A DNA stretch of 64,000 nucleotides from Thermococcus barossii. GTDB lineage: Archaea > Methanobacteriota_B > Thermococci > Thermococcales > Thermococcaceae. Below, one piece after another: positions 29,703-55,317 of this stretch. Position 1 is the stretch's first letter; each line of letters opens with the position of its first letter. The notes beneath the pieces are model-generated. The model searched no databases. It was not told the origin of the DNA and worked only from the letters and a program-made list of their open reading frames with translations. The stretch is from NCBI RefSeq assembly GCF_002214465.1, contig NZ_CP015101.1:565013-629012 (forward strand). Direction: 5' to 3'. Both the position numbers and the translations under genes were made by a program.

Positions 29703-29780
29703 AGCGGGGTGGGGCAGCTAGGAGTGCCCGCCGGGCTCATAACCCGGAGGTCGGAGGTTCAAATCCTCCCCCCGCTACCA
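29703..29780 (+). tRNA. Initiator tRNA-Met (CAT), CCA encoded
   Basis: A complete 78-nt cloverleaf. The acceptor is AGCGGGG/CCCCGCT, the anticodon CAT at 29738-29740, the T arm GGAGGTTCAAATCCTCC, and the genomic CCA at 29778-29780. Two initiator hallmarks are present: the A1:U72 acceptor pair and the GGG/CCC run in the anticodon stem (CCGGGctcataaCCCGG). No intron. Confidence 0.96.
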
Positions 29781-55056: not shown

Positions 55057-55118
55057 ACATAACCACCGGTTATTTACTTCAGTCCTGGAAGTTATAAGCC
55101 TTCCTCAGAAGGGCGTCG

Positions 55119-55250
55119 AAGTGTGGGCCGGGTACAGAGGCCCGCGTTCATTCGCTCGCGCGGGTGGATGCCCCCGGCCCTGTGGGCTCGGCGTGAGCAC
55201 ACTCCGCTCACGGAACCCGATGCCTCGCGGAGGCGGGTAAACCGAGCCCA
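55119..55250 (-). ncRNA. H/ACA box sRNA with two K-turn hairpins (pseudouridylation guide)
   Basis: Read on the minus strand, hairpin 1 (55249-55184) closes with GGGCTCGG/CCGAGCCC and is followed at once by ACA (55183-55181). Hairpin 2 (55180-55125) closes with GGGCCGGG/CCCGGCCC and is followed at once by ACA (55124-55122). Hairpin 2 has an 8+8 nt pocket (GGCATCCA / CCTCTGTA) below a CCCGCG/CGCGGG stem capped by a GA...TGA K-loop, with 16 nt from upper stem to ACA, the expected geometry. Hairpin 1 can form CTCCGC/GCGGAG with GA...TGA but also an alternative CGTGAGC/GCTCACG fold. A third 10-bp hairpin (55250-55273) lies just 5'. TATA-like elements stand at 55282-55290 and 55302-55309. Targets were not identified. 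Confidence 0.8.
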
Positions 55251-55317
55251 TGAGGAGACTACTGTCCCCTCACTGTCGGCGATTAAATATCCGGGTGAGA
55301 ACTTAAAAACCTGAGCC

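Follow-up and report, generated by a model that had tools for sequence, protein, structure and literature searches.

The minus strand of the 64,000-nt stretch of Thermococcus barossii DNA analyzed here (contig NZ_CP015101.1; hereafter the window) encodes, with near certainty, HgcF (Pab35), an already catalogued H/ACA guide RNA of the Thermococcales, and the 5′ end of this RNA likely pairs with 23S rRNA. The best reading of the 5′ end, to which we give an even chance, is that of a third, reduced “half guide” that relies on the rRNA to complete its lower stem. A more specific form of this proposal, held with somewhat less than even confidence, is that the first 18 nt and the rRNA form a stem whose ACA directs Cbf5-Gar1 to U2607, making HgcF the archaeal counterpart of yeast snR34. 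The RNA itself is known, and our claim of novelty is limited to the proposed 5′ half guide. In the literature searched, which did not include the primary P. abyssi paper, nothing was found that proposes a function for the 5′ hairpin or names a guide for Psi2607.

Positions 55111-55280 of the window (minus strand) are a full-length match to Rfam family RF00058 (HgcF/Pab35), with model positions 1-168 complete, a score of 140.1 bits, which is twice the family cut-off of 70 bits, and an E-value of 3.5e-32. An initial annotation made from the sequence alone, which described an unannotated double-hairpin H/ACA guide RNA at 55119-55273, was partly confirmed in its observations and partly supported in its interpretation. 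Its strand and RNA class are borne out by Rfam, by covariation and by rRNA target matches; the feature extends beyond the interval that it gave. “Unannotated” applies to the raw sequence only, as the family is catalogued and its targets have been validated in vitro in P. abyssi (PMC4652768). Weak matches to RF00065 and RF00060 over the same region fall below cut-off and reflect features common to H/ACA RNAs.

Of 94 Thermococcales genomes, 91 carry RF00058, including all 74 of good quality and 36 of the 37 genomes of the genus and covering all six genera; no match was found in the relatives searched outside the order. In P. abyssi the match (318231-318398) coincides with the published position of Pab35, for which RNA-seq has defined a transcript at 318227-318410 (PMC4652768); this transcript covers the match, and the 5′ block thus lies within it. 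In the window, hgcF lies between an EamA-type transporter-like gene and an HTH-CBS gene on the same strand, both named from their translations. Almost all homologues carry a TTTTAA-type box at this distance upstream, with a variable spacer, and the box stands where general archaeal promoter spacing would put it. Another H/ACA RNA, HgcE/Pab105, is encoded at 629962-630082 of the contig (minus strand), about 1 kb past the end of the window and about 9.7 kb from HgcF; in three other genomes, weak second RF00058 matches some 7 kb away from HgcF may correspond to the HgcE/Pab105 gene.

Table 1. Features of the HgcF locus in the window (RNA nucleotides are numbered from the start of the RF00058 match).
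Feature	Window position	Strand	Details
Likely TATA box	55303..55309	-	TTTTTAA; RNA nt 1 lies about 26 nt downstream
Antisense block, RNA nt 1-13	55268..55280	-	GCCGACAGUGAGG; antisense to 23S 2594-2606, ending one base before U2607; 13 bp, one G-U
5′ hairpin, RNA nt 8-31	55250..55273	-	GUGAGGGGAC/GUCUCCUCAU; 10 bp, two G-U
Third ACA box, RNA nt 16-18	55263..55265	-	15 nt from first guide base; invariant in 78/78 sequences
H/ACA motif 1	55181..55249	-	Lower stem GGGCUCGG/CCGAGCCC; K-turn, GA 55226-55225, UGA 55210-55208; ACA 55183-55181
Motif 1 3′ guide	55192..55198	-	GCUCACG; target 23S U2676; 7 bp with CGUGAGC-U, plus GGGU/ACCC on 5′ guide side; ACA 15 nt from guide base adjoining U2676
H/ACA motif 2	55122..55180	-	Lower stem GGGCCGGG/CCCGGCCC; K-loop, GA 55157-55156, UGA 55150-55148; ACA 55124-55122; supported by covariation and Rfam alignment
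Motif 2 3′ guide	55134..55139	-	CUCUGU; target 23S U2553 (ACAGAG-U2553), ACA at 15 nt; possibly also U2701

Two canonical motifs make up most of the RNA. In an alignment of 78 distinct homologues, 13 of 29 base pairs show changes on both sides against 5.3 expected from shuffles (0 of 500 shuffles attained 13), and sliding the pairing partner as a control gave at most five such pairs. Both hairpins covary in their lower as well as their upper stems, and this, together with the RF00058 match, places the two-hairpin RNA far beyond chance. Each motif has the archaeal H/ACA layout of a lower stem followed by ACA, an internal pocket and an upper stem with a GA-UGA K-turn or K-loop, and in each the guide base adjoining the target is 14-15 nt away from the ACA, in keeping with the archaeal rule. 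The two 8-bp basal stems of the initial annotation, each followed directly by ACA, are present as described. The GA/UGA elements that it called K-loops likewise occur in both upper stems, but the first hairpin carries a K-turn and only the second a K-loop. For the pocket-to-ACA distance of hairpin 2, put at 16 nt, the published rule of a 10-layer GA stem gives 15 (or 14) nt instead, and the alternative fold suggested for hairpin 1 does appear in the minimum-energy prediction, but covariation favours the K-turn fold instead.

By homology, the two motifs would steer Cbf5-Nop10-Gar1-L7Ae to pseudouridines at 23S U2676 and U2553, and possibly U2701. The pairs Pa35.1-L2672 and Pa35.2-L2549 are listed as guide-target pairs validated in vitro in P. 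abyssi (PMC4652768), and T. kodakarensis 23S numbering runs four ahead of that of P. abyssi (PMC6138745). With this offset U2676 equals L2672 and U2553 equals L2549, so that both validated targets are recovered, and the single-base-pair 3′ duplex published for Pa35.2-L2549 is reproduced in the window copy. The same paper lists “Pab35.3” once, yet also Pa40.3, and its list may be swapped (PMC4652768). The target first proposed for hairpin 2, ACAGAGG-U-GGAUGCC, proved absent from 16S and 23S rRNA when the scan was run; the real matches are ACAGAG-U2553-CG and ACAGG-U2701-CGGAUGC. The latter is reached by a one-base shift of the pocket, with a 7-bp 3′ duplex and the ACA at 14 nt, and motif 2 may in this way serve two uridines, the second of which we take to be a pseudouridine in P. 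abyssi too. The E. coli equivalents of U2553, U2676 and U2701 are 2457, 2580 and 2605, numbered by aligning the rRNA to a 23S copy of 2906 nt whose count runs 2 nt ahead of the standard. HgcG/Pab40 has an ACA at RNA position 23, and its 7-nt guide GCTCATG also fits U2676, which agrees with the published account of L2672 as a site open to two guides.

The hairpin lying 5′ of the two motifs was rightly spotted in the initial annotation, which described it as a perfect 10-bp stem without ACA. Its ten pairs include two G-U pairs, and the ACA was missed: RNA nt 16-18 form one. The hairpin is part of the Rfam model, is present throughout the 78 sequences, with a stem that begins one pair later in L179 alone, and is shown to be real by the covariation of two of its pairs, that of nt 9 (C-G/U-A/U-G) and that of nt 15 (G-C/U-A). 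The 78 distinct sequences are almost invariant over RNA nt 1-18 (GCCGACAGYGRGGGKACA), and conservation falls after the ACA: nt 2-6, 8, 10, 12-14 and 16-18 do not vary, nt 1, 7, 9, 11 and 15 vary little, and nt 19 onward are highly variable. Variation was also compared between the two strands of the hairpin, with no clear-cut asymmetry.

This pattern exceeds that of a mere hairpin, and it bears on the strongest competing account, in which HgcF is an ordinary two-guide RNA, its 5′ hairpin a passive element of 5′-end protection or processing, and the rRNA match described below coincidental. The conservation and covariation of the hairpin itself speak for such an element. However, the first seven nucleotides lie outside the stem and are nevertheless nearly invariant across six genera, and the ACA is kept both where A16-C17 is paired (Thermococcus type) and where it lies in the loop (Pyrococcus type). 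Taken with the evidence of the next two paragraphs, this leaves a passive hairpin rather unlikely.

RNA nt 1-13 are complementary to a strand of the peptidyl transferase centre (23S 2594-2606, CCUCGCUGUCGGC; E. coli 2498-2510). The common form of this block, GCCGACAGCGAGG, pairs without any wobble. Complementarity is retained in 81 of 82 homologues: the substitutions C9 to U, A11 to G and A7 to G each preserve a pair, and the sole loss is a terminal G1 to A change in one homologue (L026). The 23S site is unchanged in 66 genomes of the order, and no compensatory changes between rRNA and guide are visible because the rRNA is invariant. The 13-mer pattern occurs at exactly two sites of the 1.92-Mb host genome, one in HgcF and one antisense to the rRNA gene, and the longest such match in three other H/ACA RNAs of the same genome is 11. 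When HgcF was shuffled, a strict match of at least 13 arose anywhere in the RNA with P = 0.022, a modest value for a 13-nt match that was found by looking and one that counts towards the passive-hairpin account; at the 5′ terminus it arose in 0 of 20,000 shuffles. Nucleotides 14-15 pair poorly with the rRNA. Predicted folding energies, which leave native rRNA structure and proteins out of account, favour the 13-bp complex over the free hairpin both at 37 °C and at 85 °C. A search for the antisense-plus-ACA pattern in 21 genomes of the phylum outside the Thermococcales gave no match.

The uridine at which the complementarity stops, U2607 (P. abyssi 2603), is a documented Cbf5-dependent pseudouridine in T. 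kodakarensis (PMC6138745). In productive guides the ACA lies 14-15 nt from the target-adjacent base (PMC4652768); the 5′ element has 13 bp abutting U2607 with an ACA at 15 nt, and all three HgcF ACA boxes sit 14-15 nt from the guide base abutting the target uridine. Comparison of all ACAs of the window, on both strands, with 668 rRNA uridines gave nine cases of at least 13 bp (wobbles allowed), among which only that of HgcF is at a documented pseudouridine, and the HgcF 5′ ACA is the only one in the 64-kb window with at least 11 bp adjoining such a site. A passive hairpin does not account for a match that stops precisely at a known pseudouridine and has its ACA at the correct distance. On its side is the observation that Psi2603/2607 forms in vitro with Cbf5-Gar1 on a 22-nt rRNA fragment without a guide. 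In vivo the modification also forms without Nop10 (PMC6138745), and a guide is thus not strictly needed.

The 5′ element also has no lower stem of its own, no 5′ guide and no K-turn upper stem in its sequence or folds; it therefore falls outside the canonical H/ACA motif, and a canonical fold was ruled out. Its hairpin contains no GA/UGA element, which separates it from the crenarchaeal H/ACA-like type, recognized by a K-turn upper stem without a lower stem. Given the guide-free activity in vitro, the Nop10 independence and these missing parts, we put the guiding of U2607 by the 5′ element at about even or slightly below; the element may be a booster, anchor or chaperone rather than a guide.

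The half-guide proposal can be stated as a sequence of steps. In the free RNA, the 5′ end would fold as the small hairpin. On pre-23S rRNA, the unpaired tail GCCGACA would begin pairing, and the hairpin would open into the 13-bp helix with 23S 2594-2606. This helix, with no upper stem or K-turn, would substitute for the 3′-guide duplex and the lower stem together, leaving U2607 at one end and, 15 nt away at the other, the ACA for Cbf5's PUA domain. The element would then offer U2607 to Cbf5-Gar1; at a minimum, it would keep the peptidyl transferase strand open during HgcF-directed modification of neighbouring sites. In its geometry the helix is like the stacked acceptor and T stems of tRNA with their terminal CCA, a substrate that Cbf5 can modify with little help, and this likeness would fit the reported Nop10 independence of Psi2607.

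Alternatively, the 5′ element might pair with 23S 2594-2606 and serve the peptidyl transferase region as an anchor or folding chaperone instead of guiding a pseudouridine. The sites with which HgcF pairs all fall in a span of about 150 nt in domain V, and H/ACA RNPs have long been suspected of being rRNA chaperones (PMC7991803). We nonetheless consider this role unlikely, since it does not say why an ACA that never varies should stand exactly 15 nt away from a documented pseudouridine. Far less probable is a part in the missing guide for the orphan Psi2589. This modification in T. kodakarensis requires an unidentified RNA and all four H/ACA proteins (PMC6138745), and U2589 sits 5 nt upstream of the antisense block; however, the geometry of the 5′ element does not fit U2589 as a target, no HgcF segment pairs properly 5′ of this uridine at the right ACA distance, and the known P. 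abyssi guides formed no Psi2585 in vitro (PMC6138745).

The plus strand is predicted to fold slightly better than the minus strand, so that folding alone cannot pick the strand, but the plus-strand element lacks the conserved signals, and the minus strand is chosen by homology, by the conserved ACA and GA boxes and by the upstream promoter-like box. Chance hairpins or a plus-strand element are already refuted by the RF00058 match, the covariation and the conservation in 91 of 94 genomes.

Compared with known systems, the window RNA agrees with HgcF/Pab35 (RF00058) in its full length, its two H/ACA motifs, its target uridines and the 5′ hairpin of the model; the descriptions of the family that were consulted leave that hairpin without a role, whereas we propose it as a third, rRNA-pairing and ACA-bearing element. 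With the canonical archaeal motif (10/5/9 and 10/6/9 folds; PMC4652768) the 5′ element shares an abutting 3′ guide and an ACA at 14-15 nt, but not a lower stem of its own, a 5′ guide or a K-turn. The H/ACA-like RNAs of the crenarchaeon Pyrobaculum also have no lower stem (PMC4652768), but they keep the upper K-turn stem that the HgcF element lacks. Guide-free action of Cbf5 on U2607 and on tRNA U55 involves the same enzyme, in the former case on the same uridine, and a long stack ending in ACA or CCA; HgcF would in addition supply the opposite strand and the ACA.

In yeast, snR34 guides Psi2826, and a strain without snR34 and two C/D RNAs loses Psi2880 (PMC11121408). By alignment these sites correspond to E. 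coli 2457 and 2511, and hence to U2553 and U2607. With snR34 serving both equivalents, there is a precedent for one RNA covering the two sites, as proposed for HgcF, although the likeness is one of targets. It consists of two complete hairpins, unlike the HgcF 5′ element, and human U65 is placed alongside it.

If the half-guide proposal is true, one of the standard examples of rRNA modification by Cbf5 without a guide would turn out to involve an RNA partner, and the guide would be of a simpler design in which the substrate provides half, bridging tRNA-type and guide-type recognition and linking archaeal HgcF to yeast snR34. The proposal lends itself to a direct test in a genetically tractable archaeon.

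The window also contains a second known guide RNA, the C/D box RNA sR45 (RF01274; 37860-37921, minus strand, 67.9 bits), and a tRNA-Met(CAU) gene at 29703-29780 on the plus strand.
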